From assembly GCA_016869175.1 (NCBI GenBank), contig VGEV01000029.1, positions 1-32,437 of the forward strand: a stretch of 32,437 bases of DNA. Reading direction: 5' to 3'. Of the stretch, positions 6,775-32,358 are shown in pieces. The stretch comes from Alphaproteobacteria bacterium (GTDB lineage Bacteria > Pseudomonadota > Alphaproteobacteria > GCA-2731375). The notes beneath the pieces are model-generated. The model was not told the DNA's origin. It searched no databases and saw nothing but the letters and a program-made list of their open reading frames with translations. The position numbers and the translations under genes are program-made. The first letter of the stretch is position 1; each line of letters opens with the position of its first letter.

Positions 6775-7197
6775 ATGGGCAACATGCTGCAAGGCATCGG
6801 TGTCGTCGCAGGCATCGCCGAAGGGCCGGCGCTGGTCACGCGCGACGGCGTGGCCTTCAACCTGGGCGTCGACATGACGAGCGGCCGCGTGGTGGAACGC
6901 GGGCACGAACTGGAGGGAGCGTGCCTGAAAGGCGCGGTGCTGGTCTGCCGTGGCGGCAAGGGCTCGGGCGGCTTGTCCTATGGCTTGCTGCAGGTGGTGG
7001 CGAACGGCTGCGGGCCGGTGGCGATTGTGGCCGAGCAGGCCGACGCGCTGATCGCCGCCGGCGCCGTGCTGGCGAACATACCGCTTGTGCACAGGATTTC
7101 GGGGCACGATCGGCTGCGGCCGGGAATGCGGCTCAGGATCGACGGCGGCCAGGGCACCGTGACCGTGCTGAATGGGCAAGGCACGCCATGCGGCTGA
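6775..7197 (+). CDS. AcnX small (swivelling) subunit, DUF126 family
   Basis: A 140-residue protein matching the small swivelling domain of aconitase-X (COG1786). Typical elements are a start with GIGVVAGIAEGPALVT, then HELEGACLKGAVLVCRGGKG and the loop GKGSGGLSYGLLQV (residues 61-74), and a GxRLRIDGGQGTVTV end. In known two-subunit members this domain closes over the Fe-S large subunit; described reactions include cis-3-hydroxy-L-proline dehydration and archaeal phosphomevalonate dehydration. The start at 6775 was preferred to the Met three residues on because it lies seven bases after the crotonase stop. Its 3' end overlaps the large-subunit gene by ten bases. Confidence 0.88.
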   Translation: MGNMLQGIGVVAGIAEGPALVTRDGVAFNLGVDMTSGRVVERGHELEGACLKGAVLVCRGGKGSGGLSYGLLQVVANGCGPVAIVAEQADALIAAGAVLANIPLVHRISGHDRLRPGMRLRIDGGQGTVTVLNGQGTPCG

Positions 7198-8420
7198 CGG
7201 CCGAGCAGCAGGCGATGGCGGACGGCCGGGCCGGCGAGGCGGTGCGCCAAGCCATGGCCATGCTGCTGGCCGTCGGCAAGGCGGTCGAGGCGCCGCGATT
7301 GATCCCGGTCGCCTCCGCCCACATTGTGATCGACGCGGTGACGCTGGGCGAACCCGGCCTCAAGCAGGTGGATGGCCTGGCCAGGGCCGGCGGCCGCTTC
7401 GTCATCCCCACCACGATCAACGCCGTGGCCTGCGACCGCCGGGCCGCGCCGGACCGTTTGCAAGGCGCTGCCCTGCGCCAGCACGAGGTGCTGCAGGCCT
7501 GCATCGCGATGGGCGGGCTTGCCACCTGCTCCTGCAATCCCATCGGCCAAGGCATCGTGCCGTCCTTTGGCCAGTCGGTTGCCTGGAGCGAGTCGGGCAC
7601 GGCGCCCTATGTCAACGGCGTCCTGGGCGCGCGCACCAACCGGGAAGGTGCCACGTCGCTGGCATCCGCCTTGACCGGCTTCACGCCCGACTACGGCATG
7701 CACCGGCCGCAAGCGCGCAAGGGCGAGATCCTGGTCGATCTGGTGGCGCCGATCTCCGGCATCGACGGTTTCGGCCTGTTGGGCCTGCATCTGGCACGGC
7801 GCTGGCCGGGCCGCATTCCGGTCCTGCGCGGCCTGTCGTCGCCGCAACTGGACGAATGGATTGCTCTTGCCTCCAGCTTCGCCATCGCCGGCTCGGCGCC
7901 GATGTTCCATGCCGTCGGCCTGACGCCGGAGGCGCCCAGCCTGGCGGCGGCGTTCCCCGAGGGCGCGCCGGCACCCGAACGGGTCGGCGATGACGATCTG
8001 CGGGTCGAGCGGCAGCGCCTGGAGAGCGAGCCCGGCGAAACGATCGACCTGGTGGTGCTGGGCTGCCCGCATGCCTCGTTGCAACAACTGGCGGAAGCGG
8101 CGCGGCTGATGGCCGGCCGGCGGGTGAAGAGCGGCGTCGACTGCGTGCTGCATACGAGCCAGGGCGTCCATGCGTTGGCCGAGGCGGCAGGACATGTGGC
8201 GGCCCTGACCGCGGCCGGTGCGCGCCTGACGGTCGGCGCCATGTGCTACGGCTGCGATTTCCGCGACCCACGGTTCCCGGAAGGCGCGCGCGTCGCGACC
8301 AATTCCGGCAAGCTGCTGTTCGTCGCGCCCGGCAGTCAGCGCGCGCGCCTGCGCCTGGCGGACACCGCCGCCTGTCTCGACGCCGCCGTGACCGGCCGGC
8401 TGCCGCGCTACAACCGATAG
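7188..8420 (+). CDS. AcnX large (catalytic) subunit, DUF521 family
   Basis: A 410-residue protein matching the aconitase-X catalytic subunit. Characteristic segments are FVIPTTINAVACD (residues 71-83), CSCNPIGQGIVPSFGQ with Cys114 and Cys116 (114-129), AWSESGTAPYVNGVLGART (132-150), and near the C-terminus TVGAMCYG with Cys353. These cysteines are the likely iron-sulfur ligands. The family dehydrates hydroxy acids, but only cis-3-hydroxyproline and phosphomevalonate substrates are established. Here the genes sit next to a crotonase and two lactonase-like hydrolases, not proline genes, so another hydroxy or lactone-derived acid is plausible. The last 13 bases overlap the convergent amidohydrolase gene. 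Confidence 0.9.
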   Translation: MRLTAEQQAMADGRAGEAVRQAMAMLLAVGKAVEAPRLIPVASAHIVIDAVTLGEPGLKQVDGLARAGGRFVIPTTINAVACDRRAAPDRLQGAALRQHEVLQACIAMGGLATCSCNPIGQGIVPSFGQSVAWSESGTAPYVNGVLGARTNREGATSLASALTGFTPDYGMHRPQARKGEILVDLVAPISGIDGFGLLGLHLARRWPGRIPVLRGLSSPQLDEWIALASSFAIAGSAPMFHAVGLTPEAPSLAAAFPEGAPAPERVGDDDLRVERQRLESEPGETIDLVVLGCPHASLQQLAEAARLMAGRRVKSGVDCVLHTSQGVHALAEAAGHVAALTAAGARLTVGAMCYGCDFRDPRFPEGARVATNSGKLLFVAPGSQRARLRLADTAACLDAAVTGRLPRYNR

Positions 8421-19558: not shown

Positions 19559-20917
19559 GTGGATGCCATTCGCGCCTTCGCCGAGCATGTCGCACGCAGT
19601 CGTTTCGAAGATCTGTCGCCGGACGCGGTGCGGGCGGCAAAGGTCTATACCCTGGACAGCTACGGCGTCGGCCTGGCCGGCAGCGCCGGTCCGTGGGTTG
19701 CGGAACTGATCGCTTGCCAGCAGGGCTGGGGCGGCGGCGAACAGGCCCGGGTCTGGGTCAGCGGCGCGCGCCTGCCGGCGCCGGCGGCGGCGATGTGCAA
19801 CGCCTACCAGATCCACAACTCCGAGTTCGATTGCGTGCACGAGCAGGCGGTGGTGCATCCCATGGCCGTGCTGCTGGCCGCACTCACGGCCTTTGCCGAG
19901 CGCGAAGGCGGCGTCGACGGCAAGGACTTCCTGACCGCCGTGGCCTTGGGCGTGGACGTCGCGGCGGGCCTGGGCGTTGCCTCGAAGTCGCCGCTCAAGT
20001 TCTTTCGCCCGGCGACCGCCGGCGGTTTCGCCGCCACCGCGGCGATCGGCAAGCTCATGGGCTTCGATGCCGACCGCCTGGTCAACGCCTTCGGTATCGT
20101 CTACAGCCAGCTCTGCGGCACCATGCAGGCGCATACCGAGGGCTCCATGCTGCTCGGCATGCAGATCGGGTTCAACGCGCGCAACGCGGTCTTCGCCTGT
20201 GACATGGCGCGGCGCGGGCTGGCGGGGCCGCAGAACGTGCTGGAAGGCGCTTTCGGTTTCTTCAAGTTGTTCGAGGGCGAGCACGACCTGGCCCTGGTGC
20301 TGGCCGCGCTGGGCAAGACGTGGCGGATCGCCGAAGTGGCACACAAGCCGTTTCCAAGCGGCCGCGCCACGCATGGCGTGGTCGATGCCTGCATGGAACT
20401 GAAAGGCGCGCATGGGTTCGCCGTGGCGGAGATCGACACGGTCGAGGCGCGCGTGCCTTCGCTGGTGCATCGTCTGGTCGGCCGCCCGCCGACCGACGAC
20501 ATGGCGGTCAACTACGCCCGTCTGTGCGTTGCCTTCGTCAGCGCGCGAGCCCTGATGAACGGTTTCGTCGGCGTCGACGACTTCCGGCCGGAGGTGCGCA
20601 CGGACCTTGCCACGTTGGCCTTGGCGCGGCGCTTCAGCGTGCGGATCGACGACAATCCCGATCCCAACGCGCTGGTGCCGCTGACGGTGGAGATCGGGCT
20701 GAAATCGGGCGCGCGGCATGCGCGCAAGCTGGATGTCGTCTATGGCAACCCGGCCAAGCCGATGAGCCGCGAGGCGCATCTTGCCAAGTTTCGCCGCAAC
20801 TGGACGGCGGGCAGCCGGCCGCTGCCGGCGGCGGGCTGCGAGCGCATGATCGCCCTGGTGGACGATTTGGAACGACTGCCCGACATGCGCCTCCTGGTCG
20901 ATCTGATCGCCCCATGA
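19559..20917 (+). CDS. MmgE/PrpD family protein, second copy
   Basis: A 452-residue MmgE/PrpD protein starting with GTG at 19559, preceded by GAGGG at 19546-19550. Typical segments are RAAKVYTLDSYGVGLAGS, NAYQIHNSEFDCVHEQAVVH (residues about 81-100), FRPATAGGFAATAAIGKLMG, GTMQAHTEGSMLLGMQIG and HKPFPSGRATHGVVDACMEL. It is only distantly similar to the protein encoded just upstream, so the pair may do two different reactions or form a hetero-oligomer. Dehydration, decarboxylation or epimerisation of a tricarboxylate-like acid are the known options. Its stop overlaps the start of the ligase gene (ATGA). Confidence 0.92.
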   Translation: MDAIRAFAEHVARSRFEDLSPDAVRAAKVYTLDSYGVGLAGSAGPWVAELIACQQGWGGGEQARVWVSGARLPAPAAAMCNAYQIHNSEFDCVHEQAVVHPMAVLLAALTAFAEREGGVDGKDFLTAVALGVDVAAGLGVASKSPLKFFRPATAGGFAATAAIGKLMGFDADRLVNAFGIVYSQLCGTMQAHTEGSMLLGMQIGFNARNAVFACDMARRGLAGPQNVLEGAFGFFKLFEGEHDLALVLAALGKTWRIAEVAHKPFPSGRATHGVVDACMELKGAHGFAVAEIDTVEARVPSLVHRLVGRPPTDDMAVNYARLCVAFVSARALMNGFVGVDDFRPEVRTDLATLALARRFSVRIDDNPDPNALVPLTVEIGLKSGARHARKLDVVYGNPAKPMSREAHLAKFRRNWTAGSRPLPAAGCERMIALVDDLERLPDMRLLVDLIAP

Positions 20918-22302
20918 CCGACTATTTCCAAGAGGTCGACCGGGAGCGGATGCTGGCCGAGTATCCGATCGGCCAGGCCTTCCTCGACGGCCCGGCCAAG
21001 TTGTCGCCCGACGAACTCCATGGCTTGCAGAACCGGCGCTTTCTGGCGGTGGTGGCGCGCGCCTGGCAGGTGCCGTTCTATCGCCGGCGCTGGCGGGCGG
21101 CCGGGCTGGAGCCGGGCGACATCCGCGGTCTGCGGGACATCGGCCGCATCCCGCCCTATTCCAAGTCGGACCTGATGGCGAGCGTGGAAGCCTATCCGCC
21201 CTGGGGCGACTATCACGGCGTCGATCTCGGGGCGGGGGCGCTGCGTCCCAGCCTGGTGTTCCATACCACCAGCGGCACCACCGGCACGCCGCAGCCGCTG
21301 TTCTATGGCGCCTGGGACCGCGAATTGCAGAACCTAATGCTGGCCCGGGCCTATCGCCTGCAAGGCATGCGCGACGACGACGTCGTGCATTCGGTCTATG
21401 GCTTCGGCACGGTCAATGGCGGCCATTACATCCGCGAGACCATCGTGCATTTCACCAAGTGCCTGCTGTTGACCGCGGGCACCGGTCTGGAGACCCGTTC
21501 GGAACAGCAGGTCGAACTGATGCGCCATTTCGGCGCGACCGTGCTGGTGGGCTTTGTCGACTACATCAAGCGTCTGGCCGAAGTGGCGCGCGAACGCGGG
21601 CTGGTGCCCGGCCGCGACATTCCCTTGCGGATGATCTCCGGCCATATCGGCAAGGAGAACCGCGAGGCGATCCGCGCCATGTGGGGCGGCGCCAACATCT
21701 TCGACTGGTATGGCGTCGGCGATACCGGGACGATCTGCGCGGAGGGGCCGGCGCGCGACGGCCATTACGTGTTCGAGGACGCGCACTATCTGGAGATCCT
21801 GAGCCCGGAGACGGGACAGCCGGTGCCAGAGGGCGAGCCCGGCAACATGTGCGTGACCGTGCTGTTCAAGACCGGCGTTTATCCCATCGTGCGGTTCAAT
21901 ACCAACGACGTGTCGGCCTTCCTGCCGCGGGACGCGGGCGATCCCATCCGCTTTCGCCGGGTGCTGGGTTTCCAGGGGCGCAGCGACAACATGGTCAAGC
22001 TGCGCGGCATCAACGTCTATCCGACGGCGATCGGCGGCATCCTGTCGGAACATGCCGCGGCCGCCGGCGAATACATCTGCCGGGTGGAACGCCATGGCGC
22101 CCGCGAGGAAATGGCGGTGGTGGTGGAAATTCGCGCCGACCAGCCGCGCGACGCGGCGGTTCAAGGGGCGTTGCGCGAGCTCTTGCGCCGCAAGCTCGGG
22201 GTCGAGGTGGCGGTTGAACTGGTCGGCGTCGGCGAGACCGCAAGCCTGACCCAGATCGAGCAACGGCAGAAACCGATCCGTCTCATCGACCGGCGGGAAT
22301 AG
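20914..22302 (+). CDS. PaaK-like adenylate-forming CoA ligase
   Basis: A 462-residue member of the phenylacetate-CoA ligase (PaaK) branch of adenylate-forming enzymes, which activates a carboxylic acid with ATP and CoA. Visible motifs are the ATP loop HTTSGTTGTPQPLFYG (residues about 112-127), FDWYGVGDTGTICAEGP, FQGRSDNMVKLRGINVYP (hinge and C-terminal domain) and a C-terminal KPIRLIDRR. The core motif usually written YGxSE/TE reads YGVGDTG here. It is translationally coupled to the upstream PrpD gene by ATGA and precedes the amidase by one base. It likely activates the acid released by the amidase, or a related acid; an aromatic substrate is not required. Confidence 0.9.
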   Translation: MTDYFQEVDRERMLAEYPIGQAFLDGPAKLSPDELHGLQNRRFLAVVARAWQVPFYRRRWRAAGLEPGDIRGLRDIGRIPPYSKSDLMASVEAYPPWGDYHGVDLGAGALRPSLVFHTTSGTTGTPQPLFYGAWDRELQNLMLARAYRLQGMRDDDVVHSVYGFGTVNGGHYIRETIVHFTKCLLLTAGTGLETRSEQQVELMRHFGATVLVGFVDYIKRLAEVARERGLVPGRDIPLRMISGHIGKENREAIRAMWGGANIFDWYGVGDTGTICAEGPARDGHYVFEDAHYLEILSPETGQPVPEGEPGNMCVTVLFKTGVYPIVRFNTNDVSAFLPRDAGDPIRFRRVLGFQGRSDNMVKLRGINVYPTAIGGILSEHAAAAGEYICRVERHGAREEMAVVVEIRADQPRDAAVQGALRELLRRKLGVEVAVELVGVGETASLTQIEQRQKPIRLIDRRE

Positions 22303-22303
22303 C

Positions 22304-23695
22304 GTGCTCGACCTCAGCGTGCTCACAGTGGCCGAAGCGTCCGCGGCGTTGACTGCCGGGCGGATCAGCGCCACGCAGCTGACGGACGCGTATCTTTTTC
22401 GAATCGAGCACCTGGACAGCCGAATCAACAGCTACACGCTGGTCCTGCCCGAACGCGCGCGCGTCGAGGCGGCTGCCGCCGACGCCCGCCGCGCGGCCGG
22501 CGCGCGGCTGGGGCCGCTCGATGGCATTCCGTATGCGGTCAAGGACAACATCGATATTGCGGGCCTGCCGACCAGCGATGGCTTGGGGCCGCGCGGCAGG
22601 CCGCCGGCGGCGGCCGACGCGGTGGCGGCGGCGCGCCTGGCGGCGTCGGGCGCGGTGCTGCTTGGCAAGCTCAACCTGCATGAAGGCGCGCTGGGGGCCA
22701 CCACGCAGAACCGGCATTTCGGGCCGACGCACAATCCCTGGCGGCACGGCTTCACGCCGGGCGGCTCGTCGGGCGGCAGCGGCGCCGCGGTGGTGGCCCG
22801 GATGTGCGCCTTCGCCCTCGGCACCGACACCATGGGCTCGATCCGCCTGCCGGCGGCCTATTGCGGCTGCGTCGGCTTGAAGCAGAGCTATGGCCTCGTC
22901 AGCAATCGCGGCGCCACCCCGGCTTGCGACGGCCTCGACCATATCGGTCCGCTCGCACGCCGTGTCGGCGATGCGGCGCATGTCCTGCGGGCCCTGGCCG
23001 GGTACGACGCCGAATGGCTTGGCTCGCGGGACGCGCCCGCCGGCTGGAATCCGCTGCCAGCCGAACTGCCGGACCTGTCGGGCATCAGAATCGGCGTGTT
23101 GGACAACTTCGCGCGCTACCCAAGCGAGCCGGCGGTGGCACAAGGATTCGCGGAGGCAGTGGCTCTGCTGCGCCGGCTTGGCGGCAGAATCGAACGCCTG
23201 GACATTGCATCTTACGAGCCGCTGCCGGCGCGCCGGGCGGGCCTCCTCTGGGTTGAGGCGGCGGCGGCGGCCACCCACGAAGTCGACCTGGCGACACATC
23301 CCGGTGCCTTCCCGCCGGCGATCCGCGCCATGCTGGACTATGGCCGCGCGCTGTCGGCCGCGCGGCTGGCCAAGGCCGTTGCCGAGGTGCGGCGCCTGGG
23401 CGCCGCGTTCCGGCGGACGGTCGGCCTGGTCGACGTCATCGCCGCGCCGGCGGCGCCGCAGCTTCCCTTCGCCTTTGCCGGTCCGCAGCCGGCCGATCAG
23501 GCGGAATTCTTGGCGCTCGCCAATTTCTCCGGCCTGCCGGCGATCACGCTGCCAAGCGGCATCTCGGGCGACGGCCTGCCGCTCAGCTTGCAGCTGGTTG
23601 GCCAGCGGTTCGGCGAGGCGCGGCTATTGTCGGTTGCCGCGGCGTTCGAGCGCGCGGTCGCGCTGGCACCGCGGCCGCCGCTCAACGATAGCTGA
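22304..23695 (+). CDS. Amidase (amidase signature family)
   Basis: A 463-residue amidase signature enzyme starting with GTG at 22304, one base after the ligase stop. The Ser-cisSer-Lys triad is visible: Lys80 in IPYAVKDNIDI, cis-Ser155 in TPGGSSGGSGAAVV and the nucleophile Ser179 in DTMGSIRLPAAYCG, with the 24-residue spacing seen in malonamidase. The enzyme cleaves a carboxamide to acid plus ammonia or amine; GatA, atzF-type and general amidases belong here, and the isolated context (no gatB or gatC) excludes a tRNA role. As last gene of the site-2 operon it could free the acid that the ligase activates. Its last 14 bases overlap the convergent crotonase gene. Confidence 0.94.
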   Translation: MLDLSVLTVAEASAALTAGRISATQLTDAYLFRIEHLDSRINSYTLVLPERARVEAAAADARRAAGARLGPLDGIPYAVKDNIDIAGLPTSDGLGPRGRPPAAADAVAAARLAASGAVLLGKLNLHEGALGATTQNRHFGPTHNPWRHGFTPGGSSGGSGAAVVARMCAFALGTDTMGSIRLPAAYCGCVGLKQSYGLVSNRGATPACDGLDHIGPLARRVGDAAHVLRALAGYDAEWLGSRDAPAGWNPLPAELPDLSGIRIGVLDNFARYPSEPAVAQGFAEAVALLRRLGGRIERLDIASYEPLPARRAGLLWVEAAAAATHEVDLATHPGAFPPAIRAMLDYGRALSAARLAKAVAEVRRLGAAFRRTVGLVDVIAAPAAPQLPFAFAGPQPADQAEFLALANFSGLPAITLPSGISGDGLPLSLQLVGQRFGEARLLSVAAAFERAVALAPRPPLNDS

Positions 23696-24505: not shown

Positions 24506-24549
24506 ATAACCCGCCGGCAGGCGGCGCGCTAATGCCGGGAAAGGCCCGC

Positions 24550-26490
24550 ATGTCCTCGCCCTATCCGCACCTGTTCTCGCCACTGCAAGTGGGCGCGCGG
24601 CGTCTGCGAAACCGGGTGGCCTTGCCGGCGACGCTGACCAATTACGGCGCCGGCAACCGGGTGACCGAGCGCTGGATCGACTTCCTGGTGGAGCGGGCCA
24701 AGGGCGGCTGCGGCCTGCTGGTCAGCGAGGTCATCGCGGTCGATCCCGAAGCGCTGGCGACCGGCGCCATCGTCACCGGGTTCGACGATGGCAACGAAGC
24801 GGGTTTCAAGCGGGTGGCGCGCGAAGTGGCATCGGCGGGCGGCGTGCTGGTCGGCCAGCTCTGGCATCCCGGGCGCCAGCAGCTCTGGCATCCCACCAAG
24901 TCGCCGCGCGCCGCTTCGGCCGAACCCGATGCCTATAGCTGGACGGTCGGCCACGTGATGAGCGTGGCCGAGGTGCGCGAGGTGATCCAGGCCTACGTCG
25001 CGGCTGCCCGGCGCCTCAAGGCCTGTGGCTTCGCCGGTGTCGAAATCCACAGCGCGCATGGCTATCTGCCGCAGCAATTCCTCTCGCCCTGGTCGAACAG
25101 CCGCGGCGACGAGTTCGGCGGCAGTCTGGAGAACCGCGCCCGCTTCGCCGCCGAGATCGCCACCGGCATCCGCGAGGCTTGCGGGCGCGAGTTCATCGTC
25201 GGGATCAAGCTTCCGGGCGATGAAGGGGTGGCTGGCGGGATCGACCCGCCCGAGGCTGCCCGGGTCACGCGCCACCTGGCCGGCTTCGACGTGCTCGACT
25301 ATTTCGCCTACGGGCAGGGCAACTTCTCGCTCAGCCTGGAAACCCACGTGCCGGACTTGTATTTTCGTCCTGGGCACTTCCTGGAGATCCACAAGGCCAT
25401 GCGGGCCGCGGCCGGTGGCGTGCCGGTGATGGCGCTGGGCCGCATCGGCACGGCGGAACTGGCCGAACGCGTGGTGGCGGAAGGCTATGGCGACCTCGTG
25501 GGCATGACCCGCGCGCATATCGCCGACGCCGCCTTCGCCAACAAGGCCGCGGCCGGCCGCGCGGCCGACATCCGCCCGTCGGTCTACGACAATTTCTGCT
25601 GGGGCGAGGTGCACCAGGGCAAGCCGCTGGTGGAGTTCCACAACCCCGAGATCGGCCGGGCCGGCGAGGCGGACTGGCGGCCGACCCCGGCGGGGCGGCG
25701 CAAGCGCATCGCGGTGGTCGGCGCGGGTCCGGCCGGCCTGCAGGCGGCCTGGGTGGCGGCGGCGCGCGGCCATGCCGTGACCCTGTTCGGTGCTTCGGTG
25801 CAACCGGGCGGCAAGCTGGCGCTGGAGGCGACGCTGCCGGGCCGGCAGGAGATCGGCAAGACCATTGCCTACCAGCGTCGCCTGGCAGAACGGCACGGCG
25901 TCACGTTCCGCCTGGGGCAGCGGGCGAGCGTGGCCGACCTGCTGGCGCTGGCGCCGGATGCGGTGGTGCTGGCGAGCGGTGCGAGGCTCGGCTGGCCGCC
26001 GGGCGTGCCGGTGGGCGAGGGGCGCCTCGTCTCGGCGCGCGACTATGCCGCCCAGCCCGACGGCGGCGAGGCGGCCCTGCTCTACGATCACGACCACACC
26101 GCCGCCGTCTACGCCGTTGCCGACCTCATGGCCGGCCGCTTCAAGCGGCTGGTGCTGGCGACCCCCCGGCCGGATTTCGCGCAAGCTGTCAACTATTGCA
26201 GCGCGATCGGCGTGCATCGCCGGCTGCATCGCGCCGGCGTCGAACTGCTGGCAGCCCACCAACTGCTGGGCCACGCCAACGGCCTGGTCCGGCTGCGCAA
26301 CGTCTATAGCGATGCGGAAACGAGCCTGGCCGGTATCGAACGGGTGGTCTATGTGACGCCCCGCACGGCCGACGCGGGCCTGGCGGCCCGGCTTGGCGAT
26401 GTGCCCATCCACTGCGTCGGCGATTGCAGGGCGCCGCGCAACCTGATGGCGGCGATCCACGAAGGCCAAGCGGTGGCGGAACGGCTGTGA
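24550..26490 (+). CDS. Trimethylamine dehydrogenase-like FMN/FAD oxidoreductase lacking most cluster cysteines
   Basis: A 646-residue protein of the family of trimethylamine dehydrogenase and 2,4-dienoyl-CoA reductase. Residues about 1-335 are an old-yellow-enzyme FMN barrel ([37 protein letters not shown]). From about 390 there is a dinucleotide-binding domain ([20 protein letters not shown], then PGGKL). Between them, the four [4Fe-4S] ligands of trimethylamine dehydrogenase (Cys345, 348, 351, 364) fall on Ser344, Asp347, Cys350 and Phe363, so the cluster is probably absent. The ATG at 24550 is preferred (GGAAAGG five bases upstream); ATG at 24532 is possible. It precedes soxB by 41 bases, hinting at oxidation or demethylation of a methylated amine. 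Confidence 0.92.
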
Positions 26491-27785: not shown

Positions 27786-28067
27786 ATGCTGTTGCTGCAC
27801 TGCCCCTATTGCGGCCCGCGCTGGGAACAGGAATTCCAGTGCCGCGGCGAGGCGCATATCGCCAGGCCCGAGCCAGCGGCCGAGGCGAGCGACGCGACCT
27901 GGGCCGCCTACCTTTATCTCCGCAGCAATCCGAAAGGCCTGCATTACGAACGCTGGCAGCACACGCATGGGTGCCGGCGCTGGTTCAACGTCCTGCGCAG
28001 CACGCTGACCCATGAAATCGTCGCGATCTACCGGCCGGGCGAACCCAAGCCGGAGCTTAAGCGATGA
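27786..28067 (+). CDS. soxD: Sarcosine oxidase delta subunit family protein
   Basis: A 93-residue zinc-binding subunit. The ligands Cys6, Cys9, His59 and Cys63 are at the same positions as in characterised delta subunits (LLHCPYCGPRWEQEF near the start and RWQHTHGCRRWFN in the middle), and the length is typical. It has no catalytic role of its own and stabilises the heterotetramer. The start lies three bases after the soxB stop, and its stop overlaps the soxA start in ATGA, consistent with coupled translation. Confidence 0.95.
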   Translation: MLLLHCPYCGPRWEQEFQCRGEAHIARPEPAAEASDATWAAYLYLRSNPKGLHYERWQHTHGCRRWFNVLRSTLTHEIVAIYRPGEPKPELKR

Positions 28068-31057
28068 GCAGCCAGCCGTTCCGCCTGGCGACCGGTGGCC
28101 GCATCGACCGGCAGCGCGCATTGTGCTTCCGCTTCGATGGGCAGGTCTACTGGGGCCATCCCGGCGACACCCTGGCCTCGGCGCTGCTGGCCAATGGCGT
28201 GCGCCTGGTCGGGCGCAGCTTCAAGTATCACCGGCCGCGCGGCATCCTGGCGGCCGGGGTGGAGGAGCCGAACGCCCTGGTCCGGCTGGGCGAGGGGGCG
28301 CGGGCGGAACCCAACACGCGGGCAACCCAGGTCGAACTGTTCGACGGGCTGGTGGCGGAAAGCCAGAATCGCTGGCCGAGCCTGGCGTTCGATGCCGGGC
28401 AGGCGGGCGACCTGTTGTCCGCGTTGCTGCCGGTCGGCTTCTATTACAAGACCTTCATGCGGCCGAAAGGCTGGTGGGAGCGTTACGAGCGCTTGATCCG
28501 GCAGGCCGCTGGCATGGGGCGCGCGCCCCAGGGGGCCGATCCCGACCGCTATGCCAAGATGCATGCGCATTGCGATGTGCTGGTGGTGGGGGCGGGCCCG
28601 GCCGGCATCGCCGCCGCGTTGGCCGCCGGCCAGCGCGGGGCGCGTGTCGTCTTGGCCGACGAGCAGGCGGAACTGGGCGGCGGCCTGCTGGCGGCCGCAA
28701 GCCTGATCGACGGCCAATCCGCCGGCGACTGGCTCGCCCTGGCTCTGGCGACCTTGCGGGCGATGGATCAGGTGCGCCTGCTGCCACGCACCACCGCCTT
28801 CGGCTATTACGACCATAACTTCCTGGGGCTGGTCGAACGGGTGAGCGATCACCTGGCCGCGCCGCCCGCGCACCTGCCGCGGCACCGGCTGTGGAAGTTG
28901 CGGGCGCGACAGGTGGTGCTGGCAACGGGCGCGCTGGAACGTCCGCTGGTCTTCGCCGATAACGACCGGCCCGGAGTGATGCTGGCGGGCGCGGCCGCGA
29001 CCTATGCCACGCGCTATGGCGTGCGGTCCGGCAAGCGCGCGGTGCTGTTCACCAACAACAGCGAAGCCTATGGCGCGGCCATAGCCTTGGCGGACGCCGG
29101 CGTCCAGCTCACCGCCATCGTCGATGCGCGCGAGGATGTGCGCGACGACTGGGCAGCCCGGGCGCGCGAGCGCGGCATTCGGCTGCTCGCGGGCCAAGCC
29201 GTGGTGGCGGTCGAAGGCCGCCGCCAGGTCGCCGGCGTACGGGCCATGCGGCTGGGGCCGGGGGCCGACCAGGTGACCGGTCTTCCGGCGCGACTGGAAT
29301 GCGATCTTCTCATGATGTCAGGTGGTTACAGCCCAACCTTGCATCTTTACGCGCAGTCGGGCGGGCGGCTTGTCTGGGATCCGCTGCGGGCCTGCCAACT
29401 GCCCGGCGAGGCACGCCAGGCGGTGCACGTGGCCGGCGCCGCGCGTGGCAGCCTGGAGCTGGCGCAGGCCCTGGTCGAAGGGACGGCGGCCGGCGCGCAG
29501 GCGGCCGCCGAATGCGGCTTCGCCGGCGCCCTGCCGGAGGCGCCGCAGGCCGAACCGGCGCCGGCGGCGGCATCGCTGCGGCCGCTTTGGCTGGTGCCGC
29601 TGAGCCAAAGCAGCGGCGGCAAACGCTTTGTCGACCTGCAGAACGATGTCACCGCCGCAGACCTGATGCTGGCCACCCGCGAGGGCTATCGGGCCATCGA
29701 GCACGTCAAGCGCTACACCACCGCGGGGCTCGGGACCGATCAGGGTAAGACCGGCAATATCAATACGTTGGCGATTGTTGCTCAAAAATTGTCGGCGGAC
29801 ATCGCGGGGCTCGGCCATACCACCTACCGGCCGCCTTACACACCGGTCAGTTTCGCCGCGCTGGCCGGCCAGGACCGGGCCCCGCTGCACGAGCCGGTGC
29901 GTCGCACTGGGATGCAGGGCTGGCACGAGGAGCGCGGCGCGGAGTTCGAGCCGGTCGGCCAGTGGCGCCGCCCGCACCATTACCCGCGCCCTGGCGAAAG
30001 CATGCACGAGGCGGTGGCGCGCGAATGCCTGGCTGTGCGGCAGGCGGTTGGCGTCGTCGATGCCTCGACGCTCGGCAAGATCGACATCCAGGGGCCCGAC
30101 TCGCCGAAGGTGCTGAACTGGGTCTACACCAACGCCTGGGATCGCCTGCCGATCGGCCGTTGCCGTTATGGCCTGATGCTCAACGAAGAGGGCATGGTAT
30201 TCGACGATGGCGTGACCGCGCGCCTGGACCAGCACCACTTCCACATGACCACAACCTCGGGCGGTGCCAGCACGGTCATGAACTGGCTCGAGGAATGGCT
30301 GCAGACGGAATGGCTGAACTGGCGGGTGCGCTTCACCTCGGTTACCGAGCAATGGGCGGTGGCGGCCATTGCCGGTCCCAGTTCACGGGCGCTGCTCAAG
30401 GACTTGGCGGAGAATCTCGACCTCAGCGACGAAGCGCTGCCGTTCATGGGCGTGAGCGAGGGACGCGTGGCGGGCTTGCCGGCGCGGGTCTTCCGCATCG
30501 GCTATACCGGGGCCCAGAGCTACGAGATCAATGTTGCCGCCAGCCACGGCATGGCGCTCTGGCTGGCGCTGCTGGCCGCCGGCGAGAAGTATGGGATCAC
30601 GCCGTTCGGCACCGAGGCCATGCACGTGCTGCGGGCCGAGGTCGGCTTCATCGCGGTTGGCCATGAGACCGATGGAACGGTCACGCCGGACGACTTGGGC
30701 CTCGCCCGCCTGTGCAAGACGAGCCAGGACTTCCTGGGGCGGCGCGGGCTGGCGCGCCCGGCGTTGCGGGCGGAGCGCAAGCAGTTGGTGGGGCTGCTGA
30801 CCGACCATCCGAAGACCGTGCTGCCGATGGGCGGACAGGTGATCGACCGCGCCGAATTGCGGCCGCCGCACCCTTCGCTCGGCCATGTCACGTCGAGCTA
30901 TTGGAGTGCCCATCTGGGTCGTTCCATCGCCTTGGCCCTGATCAAGGGTGGACGGGCCCGGCAGGGCGAGCGGGTGTGGGTGACCAACGATGGCGGGCTG
31001 GCGCCGGCGACGATTGCCCCCGCGCGCTTCCTGGCGCCGGCCGAGGCAGCGCGATGA
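28064..31057 (+). CDS. soxA: Sarcosine oxidase alpha subunit family protein
   Basis: A 997-residue alpha subunit of a heterotetrameric sarcosine oxidase, the usual length. Domains in order: a ferredoxin-like N-terminus without cluster cysteines (about 10-100, FRFDGQVYWGHPGDTLASAL), an NAD-binding Rossmann fold (GAGPAGIAAALAAGQRGARV, from about 174), a second nucleotide-binding half (RYGVRSGKRAVLFTNNSEAY), and from about 600 to 970 a GcvT-like aminomethyltransferase domain (GVVDASTLGKIDIQGPDSPK, GYTGAQSYEINV). The last domain binds tetrahydrofolate and makes 5,10-methylene-THF from the methyl group. No folate genes (glyA, purU, folD) follow it here, unlike many sox operons. Confidence 0.95.
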   Translation: MSSQPFRLATGGRIDRQRALCFRFDGQVYWGHPGDTLASALLANGVRLVGRSFKYHRPRGILAAGVEEPNALVRLGEGARAEPNTRATQVELFDGLVAESQNRWPSLAFDAGQAGDLLSALLPVGFYYKTFMRPKGWWERYERLIRQAAGMGRAPQGADPDRYAKMHAHCDVLVVGAGPAGIAAALAAGQRGARVVLADEQAELGGGLLAAASLIDGQSAGDWLALALATLRAMDQVRLLPRTTAFGYYDHNFLGLVERVSDHLAAPPAHLPRHRLWKLRARQVVLATGALERPLVFADNDRPGVMLAGAAATYATRYGVRSGKRAVLFTNNSEAYGAAIALADAGVQLTAIVDAREDVRDDWAARARERGIRLLAGQAVVAVEGRRQVAGVRAMRLGPGADQVTGLPARLECDLLMMSGGYSPTLHLYAQSGGRLVWDPLRACQLPGEARQAVHVAGAARGSLELAQALVEGTAAGAQAAAECGFAGALPEAPQAEPAPAAASLRPLWLVPLSQSSGGKRFVDLQNDVTAADLMLATREGYRAIEHVKRYTTAGLGTDQGKTGNINTLAIVAQKLSADIAGLGHTTYRPPYTPVSFAALAGQDRAPLHEPVRRTGMQGWHEERGAEFEPVGQWRRPHHYPRPGESMHEAVARECLAVRQAVGVVDASTLGKIDIQGPDSPKVLNWVYTNAWDRLPIGRCRYGLMLNEEGMVFDDGVTARLDQHHFHMTTTSGGASTVMNWLEEWLQTEWLNWRVRFTSVTEQWAVAAIAGPSSRALLKDLAENLDLSDEALPFMGVSEGRVAGLPARVFRIGYTGAQSYEINVAASHGMALWLALLAAGEKYGITPFGTEAMHVLRAEVGFIAVGHETDGTVTPDDLGLARLCKTSQDFLGRRGLARPALRAERKQLVGLLTDHPKTVLPMGGQVIDRAELRPPHPSLGHVTSSYWSAHLGRSIALALIKGGRARQGERVWVTNDGGLAPATIAPARFLAPAEAAR

Positions 31058-31659
31058 GTTGGCACTATCCGCGGCAGAGTCCGCTTGCCCATCTGCACTT
31101 GGCGGTGCGGGCGACGACCGCCGAGGCCCCGGTCTGGCTTTGCGAACGGCCGCCCGCCAGCCTGGCGATCGTGCGCGGCGACGCAGACGATGCCGGGTTC
31201 AGGGCGGGCGTCGAACGCGCCTTCGGGCTGGCGCTGCCCCTCGTGGCGGGGACGAGCACCGGGCAAGCGGAGCGGTGCCTGCTCTGGCTGGGTCCGGACG
31301 AGTGGCTGATCCGCGGGCCCGATGGCGCCGACCTGACCGGCAGGCTGGGGCAGGAACTGGGCGACGTGCTGCATCAGCGGGTGGCGATCAGCGATGCGCG
31401 GGCGCTGATCGGCCTGGGCGGCGAACGCGCCCGAGAGGTGTTGTCGAAAGGCTGCGGCCTGGACCTGCACCCCAGCCTGTTCCGGCCGGGCGCCTGCACG
31501 CAAACGTTGCTGGGCCGGGTTGGCGTGCTGCTGCACGCCCTGCCGGCCGACCGCCCGCAATTCGATCTCTACGTCGCCCGCAGCTACGCCGACTATCTGT
31601 GGCACTGGCTTGCGGATGCGGCGAGCGAGTTTGGCTGCGCGATCCGCGAAGGCGGCTGA
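31054..31659 (+). CDS. soxG: Sarcosine oxidase gamma subunit family protein
   Basis: A 201-residue gamma subunit, the usual size, related in fold to aminomethyltransferases. Recognisable segments are CLLWLGPDEWLIRGP (residues about 74-88), HQRVAISDARALIGLGGERA (107-126), GCGLDLHPSLFRPGACTQTL and DLYVARSYADYLWHWL. It contacts the alpha subunit and helps form the folate pocket. Translation is coupled to soxA by an ATGA overlap. It ends six bases before the stop of the convergent biotinyl-domain gene, leaving no room for a separate terminator. Confidence 0.93.
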   Translation: MSWHYPRQSPLAHLHLAVRATTAEAPVWLCERPPASLAIVRGDADDAGFRAGVERAFGLALPLVAGTSTGQAERCLLWLGPDEWLIRGPDGADLTGRLGQELGDVLHQRVAISDARALIGLGGERAREVLSKGCGLDLHPSLFRPGACTQTLLGRVGVLLHALPADRPQFDLYVARSYADYLWHWLADAASEFGCAIREGG

Positions 31660-31665
31660 CCCGGT

Positions 31666-31887
31666 TCAGCCTTCCAACACCGCCACCACCTGGCCTTCCT
31701 GAACCGACTCGCCTTGTTCGACCAGGATCTCCTTCAGCGTGCCATTGGCCGGGGCCACGACGGGGATTTCCATTTTCATCGATTCCAGAACGATGATCGG
31801 ATCTTCCTCGTTCAACCGGTCGCCGGGCTTGGCCTCGATGGCCCACACCTTGCCAGTGATCTCGGATTTCACCCGGATATCAGCCAC
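31666..31887 (-). CDS. Stand-alone biotinyl (biotin carboxyl carrier) domain protein
   Basis: A 73-residue single biotin/lipoyl attachment domain starting with GTG at 31887. This start is chosen because GGAGGT lies at 31900-31895 with eight bases between, and family members begin here (ADIRVKSEITGKVW); a TTG at 31974 would add 29 non-conserved residues. The lysine to be modified is Lys38 in LESMKMEIPV, and the MKM context indicates biotin, not lipoate. Such mini-BCCPs serve acyl-CoA or other biotin carboxylases, but no biotin carboxylase or carboxyltransferase gene is present in the window, so the partner is elsewhere. It follows the TusA-like gene on the same strand after 90 bases. Confidence 0.88.
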   Translation of the reverse strand: MADIRVKSEITGKVWAIEAKPGDRLNEEDPIIVLESMKMEIPVVAPANGTLKEILVEQGESVQEGQVVAVLEG

Positions 31888-31977
31888 GGGCCGCACCTCC
31901 ACCGTTGCCGGGCCTGTCGCGCCCGCGTCCACCCTTGTTCGCTGCTTCTGCGCCGTGGGCGGCCGCCAGGTCAAGCC

Positions 31978-32226
31978 TCATGGCCCGCGCGCGATGCGAA
32001 AGCGGCTGACGCCCGGAGCGGCCTCCGACACCGCCAGCAGGCGATGGCCGGCGGCCTGGCAAAAGGCACGCATGTCGCCCTCTGCCGCCGGATCGTCCGC
32101 CAGCACGTCCAGCACGGCGCCCGGCGCCAACGCGACCAGGCGCTTGCGCGCCCGAAGAACCGGCAGCGGGCAGCGCAAGCCGGTGGCGTCCAGCAGCATC
32201 GCCCCCGCCTGCTCAGGCAAGTCCAT
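31978..32226 (-). CDS. TusA-like sulfur carrier/transferase family protein
   Basis: An 82-residue protein (from ATG at 32226; an ATG at 32199 is the alternative, giving 73 residues). It contains the TusA/SirA signature LDATGLRCPLPVLRARKRL with the sulfur-carrying cysteine at position 19, as in E. coli TusA. The rest fits the family (PGAVLDVLADDPAAEGDMRA, then FCQAAGHRLLAV). Family members relay persulfide sulfur in tRNA thiolation, molybdenum cofactor assembly or sulfur oxidation. It is upstream of the biotinyl protein on the same strand; no functional link between the two is evident. The 211 bases to its right, to the window end, contain no convincing gene. Confidence 0.87.
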   Translation of the reverse strand: MDLPEQAGAMLLDATGLRCPLPVLRARKRLVALAPGAVLDVLADDPAAEGDMRAFCQAAGHRLLAVSEAAPGVSRFRIARGP

Positions 32227-32358
32227 TGACTCACGGCCTCGATCGGCTTCACGGACCTGTGTTCGGCCATGCATGGCGCGAACCGACCCGGGCGGCATAA
32301 ATCACTCTAACCCGGTTTATTCACGAGAGGCCATGATGTGATGGGCAGGGAGGCAAGG

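Follow-up and report, generated by a model that had tools for sequence, protein, structure and literature searches.

Fe-S flavoenzymes of the OYE superfamily bind a [4Fe-4S] cluster between their two halves through a CX2CX2-3CX11-13C motif (PMC11574389), and possession of this cluster is taken as a hallmark of the family of the trimethylamine dehydrogenase (TMADH) and 2,4-dienoyl-CoA reductase (DCR) type. In dienoyl-CoA reductase the cluster is a bridge between two redox halves (PMC11574389). In TMADH it is the site of electron transfer to ETF, which the enzyme anchors and to which it hands its electrons (PMC8097209). 6-Hydroxypseudooxynicotine dehydrogenase (Pno), which belongs to the histamine dehydrogenase branch, contains FMN, [4Fe-4S] and ADP, uses EtfAB as its acceptor and accepts neither NAD(P)+ nor O2 (PMC7688666). 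No description of a clusterless TMADH/DCR subfamily was found in the literature that we searched, most subscription journals lying outside its scope.

In this study we analyse a flavoprotein gene in a 32,437-nucleotide stretch of alphaproteobacterial DNA (assembly GCA_016869175.1, contig VGEV01000029.1), referred to here as the window, and the clade to which its product belongs. Loss of the cluster in this clade is strongly supported. The clade is a variant of a known enzyme family, of interest because the cluster was lost cleanly and once while extant sisters still carry it. A single well-supported loss, with cluster-bearing sisters that have the same pocket, is a natural experiment on acceptor change in a flavodehydrogenase.

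Domain layout and relationship to described enzymes

The flavoprotein gene, whose GC content by codon position is 0.75/0.52/0.88, and the domains of its product are placed as follows.

24550..26490, forward strand: gene for the putatively clusterless TMADH/HDH-type flavoprotein, 646 aa, coding to 26487; an alternative ATG is at 24532
24571..25563, forward strand: FMN-domain TIM barrel (PF00724), in which H167/H170/Y172 form the HxxHxY triad
25579..25638, forward strand: former [4Fe-4S] loop, with S344, D347, C350 and E362 (F363 by raw TMADH spacing)
25702..25995, forward strand: dinucleotide (ADP/FAD) Rossmann domain, with intact GxGxxG, residues about 385-482
26017..26487, forward strand: C-terminal third, histamine-dehydrogenase-like, without the NAD(P)H GxGxxG motif

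Pfam and Foldseek both recover the architecture of the OYE-superfamily Fe-S flavoenzymes, in which an OYE-type FMN barrel at the N terminus is joined to a dinucleotide-binding half at the C terminus. The protein matches Oxidored_FMN (PF00724, 5.8e-58) and Pyr_redox_2 (PF07992), and its AlphaFold model (pLDDT 83, pTM 0.85) matches 2-naphthoyl-CoA reductase (NCR), DCR, histamine dehydrogenase (HDH) and TMADH in Foldseek with TMq values of 0.82-0.87, as well as the fold of HisD. The best full-length sequence and fold scores are those of DCR (1ps9) and NCR (6qkg), but both of these enzymes keep the four-cysteine motif and neither is matched by the C-terminal third of the window protein. Histamine dehydrogenase (3k30, 6de6) shares with it the C-terminal third, a 'YDxDH' motif and the full-length fold, and Pno/HisD (6l6j) likewise resembles it in full-length fold; the window clade differs from both in being unable to supply four cysteines. 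TMADH (2tmd/1djn) is alike in full-length fold, domain order, FMN domain and type of C-terminal domain, but besides the four-cysteine motif several of its hallmarks are missing from the window protein. Cys30, the residue of the 6-S-cysteinyl FMN, aligns with Leu; the aromatic bowl Tyr60/Trp264/Trp355 is replaced by Val, Ser and, depending on gap placement, Glu or Val; and Asp267 aligns with Thr. Since Cys30 and the three bowl residues are absent, the window enzyme probably does not act on trimethylamine.

Among NCBIfam models the best match, over the full length, is the mycofactocin system FadH/OYE oxidoreductase 2 (TIGR03997), but a score of 466 bits against a cut-off of 793 does not make the window protein a member, and no NCBIfam model scores above its cut-off. 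It would be a mistake for automatic annotation to label the clade proteins as Fe-S flavoenzyme, TMADH or FadH. A genuine member of the mycofactocin OYE 2 family, encoded on a Streptomyces plasmid (NZ_CP107797.1; L062), keeps all four cysteines, and its gene sits between mftC and genes for a mycofactocin-associated ETF alpha/beta pair and a 4Fe-4S dicluster protein. This gene order supports ETF coupling of the four-cysteine relatives.

Replacement of the cluster ligands

Counted from the ATG at 24550, Ser344 is encoded at 25579-25581, Asp347 at 25588, Cys350 at 25597 and Phe363 at 25636-25638. The preliminary description of this DNA had put these four residues in place of the cluster cysteines. 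For the first three the coordinates and our alignments agree with it, as S344, D347 and C350 lie opposite the first three cluster cysteines of TMADH and dienoyl-CoA reductase in BLAST and HMM alignments. At the fourth position it was right that no cysteine is present, but not about the residue: Glu362 (25633-25635) aligns there both in the family alignment and in pairwise HMMER comparisons, which rules out Phe363. The latter had been assigned because the count ran along TMADH, whose loop is longer by one residue than that of the window protein. The resulting S344-D347-C350-E362 does not conform to the CX2CX2-3CX11-13C motif. Other cysteines in the same place, which had been named as a finding that could overturn the claim, were looked for by alignment, and none is conserved in the loop of the window protein or of its clade.

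The clade was gathered by searching relatives, genome contigs and the class, and comprises 32 sequences including the window protein; the other 31 are distinct, have the motif region visible and are 51-65% identical to it. Their hosts are Alphaproteobacteria, mostly marine and other environmental ones, with SAR116 single-cell genomes among them, and a wider search of the phylum (398 genomes) gave no additional member at E <= 1e-90. Throughout the clade the four-cysteine motif is absent and is replaced by x-D-x-[E/D]. The first position is occupied by Cys in 13 sequences, Ser in 12 and Thr in 7, the second by Asp in all 32, the third by Cys, Ala or Ser in 10 each and Pro in 2, and the fourth by Glu in 28 and Asp in 4, so that at most two of the four motif cysteines occur together in any one member. 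In the nearest relatives outside the clade (L056 and L067-L070, 45-47% identity) the four cysteines are all retained in every case (5/5). Because Asp at position 2 and Glu or Asp at position 4 are found in 32 of 32 clade members, where the sisters have Cys in 5 of 5 at both, chance or sequencing error is excluded as the source of the motif loss. The surrounding loop is itself strongly conserved, W351, G352, H355, G357, K358 and P359 each being present in all 32 sequences.

Asp and Ser do ligate Fe-S clusters in isolated cases, such as the CxxDxxC of Pyrococcus ferredoxin. The window protein taken alone, with Ser, Asp, Cys and Glu, would be compatible with an odd cluster of this kind, and the case against a cluster is made by the clade, in which variants such as SDPD and TDAE, to judge from their residues, could not offer a plausible set of four ligands for a conventional one. 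We therefore infer that the clade proteins bind no cluster; the earlier claim of cluster loss is upheld by the change of motif in 32 of 32 members, by a single loss and by the acidic nature of the replacements.

In the tree that includes the motif the clusterless proteins are monophyletic with support of 100/100, and removal of the motif columns from the alignment leaves the SH-aLRT support at 100. A single loss of the cluster therefore suffices, the minimum number of changes being one. In eight close pairs dN/dS is 0.08-0.17, showing at the level of the sequences that the clade is under purifying selection, and a clade member is carried by 13 of the 15 genomes of the window's order. The gene is thus in use. 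In two distant relatives outside the main clade (L030 and L078) the second cluster cysteine alone is missing (CxxA and CxxG), and a three-cysteine or [3Fe-4S] cluster is possible in them.

The FMN pocket and the C-terminal third

The four-cysteine sisters, which differ from the clade in keeping every cluster cysteine, have nearly the same FMN pocket. No difference between the clade and its five sisters is seen at Q110-Q111-L112-W113, H167, H170, Y172, Q256-G257, H266, P268-D269, W351 and G352, and almost none at E264 and H355, a conservation that far exceeds the overall identity. Since the pocket is near-unchanged, the chemistry at the FMN is probably the same as in the four-cysteine ancestors. 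The His-x-x-His/Asn-x-Tyr triad of the single-domain OYE ene-reductases is present as H167, H170 and Y172 in 32 of 32 members, and also in the sisters, and hence is not specific.

When the C-terminal third alone was searched against PDB sequences, its sole match was histamine dehydrogenase (3k30, 4.3e-7; 6de6, 0.0071), with which it has the 'YDxDH' motif in common, and this search of solved structures gave no DCR or NCR match. The one remaining hit, a designed protein with an E value of 0.8, was discarded as a chance match. These comparisons show, on the sequence side, a C-terminal third of the histamine dehydrogenase type, predicted to be of the ADP-binding, non-NAD(P)H kind. The preliminary description had regarded the FMN and dinucleotide domains as intact, which holds for PF00724 and the Rossmann GxGxxG, while the C-terminal third has no NAD(P)H GxGxxG. 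It had also argued that the two halves must exchange electrons in a different way. The loss of the cluster stands, but the argument presupposes the NADPH-FAD-cluster-FMN layout of dienoyl-CoA reductase, and a histamine-dehydrogenase-like C-terminal third without that motif speaks against a layout of two redox halves. Because the branch to which this third is akin combines ADP with transfer from cluster to ETF, the loss probably affected the exit from FMN through [4Fe-4S] to ETF and not a connection between two redox halves. The second half probably had no redox activity even before the cluster was lost. Two cysteines of the C-terminal domain also deserve mention: C550 (26197) is specific to the clusterless clade (31/31), and C626 (26425) is invariant across it.

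Possible electron acceptors

On balance, we lean towards the view that the window protein is an FMN-only enzyme of the TMADH/histamine dehydrogenase branch of the OYE superfamily, which has lost its cluster and would carry out both half-reactions at the FMN. The old substrate would exchange two electrons, given or taken, at the FMN, and a small molecule (candidates are O2, NAD(P) nucleotides and unsaturated compounds) would turn over the reduced FMN in the same pocket in an OYE-style ping-pong manner, in place of one-electron transfers to ETF by way of the cluster. The D347/E362 pair may serve as a structural filler of the old cluster cavity, and the second half may be a structural, ADP-binding, non-redox module. 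The wider evolutionary proposal, for which we put the chances a little short of even, is that an ETF-linked Fe-S flavodehydrogenase became an FMN-only oxidase or a nucleotide- or ene-dependent enzyme by one ancestral cluster loss, with its pocket unchanged and the cavity re-used by the Asp/Glu pair. If true, this would be a change of acceptor made by nature, with living four-cysteine sisters at hand for comparison.

The main rival, which we consider unlikely, is that the cluster has been lost and ETF is still reduced directly from the FMN, the rebuilt loop letting the FAD of ETF come close enough. Such donation would agree with the retained C-terminal domain of the TMADH/HDH type, with the fact that TMADH anchors ETF and donates to it (PMC8097209), with the strong conservation of the loop described above and with the ETF pair that the genomes carry, a single one in the whole genome of the window organism. 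The known path, however, runs from the cluster to ETF (PMC8097209), and no ETF gene was recognised beside the window flavoprotein gene or in the clade neighbourhoods examined. Much less probable is a C-terminal half that holds FAD and exchanges electrons with the FMN directly, with no cluster in between; the dinucleotide domain with its GxGxxG is intact, but the NAD(P)H-domain motif is absent, the match of the C-terminal third is to histamine dehydrogenase alone, an ADP-type enzyme, and electrons would presumably need to cover in a single step the FMN-FAD gap that the cluster bridges in dienoyl-CoA reductase. We give an equally low rating to a new metal site, or a cluster with odd ligands, built from D347, E/D362, H355 and, where available, S/C/T344. 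Although D347 and H355 are invariant in the clade, position 362 is always acidic and Asp-ligated clusters exist, Thr, Ala or Pro is tolerated at positions 1 and 3, and H355 did not arise with the change, since 4 of the 5 cluster-bearing sisters have it too. The loop geometry predicted by AlphaFold is moreover of low confidence, parts of the loop falling below pLDDT 50 in the models of the window protein and of the four-cysteine control L056 (overall pLDDT 82) alike. That the protein is merely a remnant, in decay or moonlighting and devoid of redox function, as the loss of a cofactor-binding motif might suggest, is hardly credible for a gene with frames open throughout the clade, an invariant pocket, the low dN/dS given above and a presence in nearly all genomes of its order.

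Gene neighbourhood

The genes that surround the flavoprotein gene in the window are the following.

20320..22302, forward strand: ORF whose 3' two thirds contain an adenylate-forming gene (phenylacetate-CoA-ligase-like); syntenic in L086, 68%
22304..23695, forward strand: amidase gene; syntenic in L086, 53% identity
23682..24551, reverse strand: divergent enoyl-CoA hydratase-family (ECH) gene; syntenic in L086
26532..27782, forward strand: soxB-like gene (TIGR01373, 699 bits, cut-off 529)
27786..28067, forward strand: soxD-like gene (TIGR01374, 124.5 bits, cut-off 116.5)
28064..31057, forward strand: soxA-like gene (TIGR01372, 1384 bits, cut-off 1164)
31171..31659, forward strand (matched part; start not fixed): soxG-like gene (TIGR01375, 113 bits, below the cut-off of 144)

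The four sox-like genes follow the order of heterotetrameric sarcosine oxidase, soxB, soxD, soxA, soxG, the first three scoring above cut-off and soxG below it but in place. The soxB-like gene starts 41 bases past the flavoprotein stop, and the flavoprotein gene is probably co-transcribed with soxBDAG in the window. The order ligase, amidase, ECH (reverse), flavoprotein, soxB, soxD, soxA is found again in L086, from another genus of the same family, with 53-72% protein identity, and its recurrence there argues for a real, selected arrangement. The linkage to soxBDAG weakly suggests an N-methyl or other amine substrate in the window.

The expectation that the cysteine-less clade always sits beside soxBDAG was not borne out, as only the window and L086 show this linkage among the genomes examined; soxB is present in all 10 genomes checked and adjoins the flavoprotein gene in only 2. 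Elsewhere the clade member has other neighbours: in L034 and relatives two amidohydrolases together with an SDR, in the SAR116 group DAHP synthase and a glutamine amidotransferase, and in L083 and L084 an isochorismatase-fold hydrolase and a CoA-transferase. Since the neighbourhoods differ across the clade, they imply no common substrate; the recurring C-N hydrolase neighbours hint at a nitrogenous one. A four-cysteine relative (33%) on pAMI5 of Paracoccus aminophilus (L064) lies near aconitase-family, proline racemase-family and 4-hydroxyproline epimerase genes, a neighbourhood that suggests N-methyl(hydroxy)proline metabolism. The window itself also carries an aconitase X (AcnX) gene at 6921-8420 (forward strand), within a catabolic stretch of CoA-transferases, acyl-CoA dehydrogenases, an HpcH aldolase and MmgE/PrpD, and, just past soxG, a small biotinyl/lipoyl carrier-like gene that adjoins a TusA-like sulfur carrier gene (31666-31974 and 31978-32298, reverse strand).
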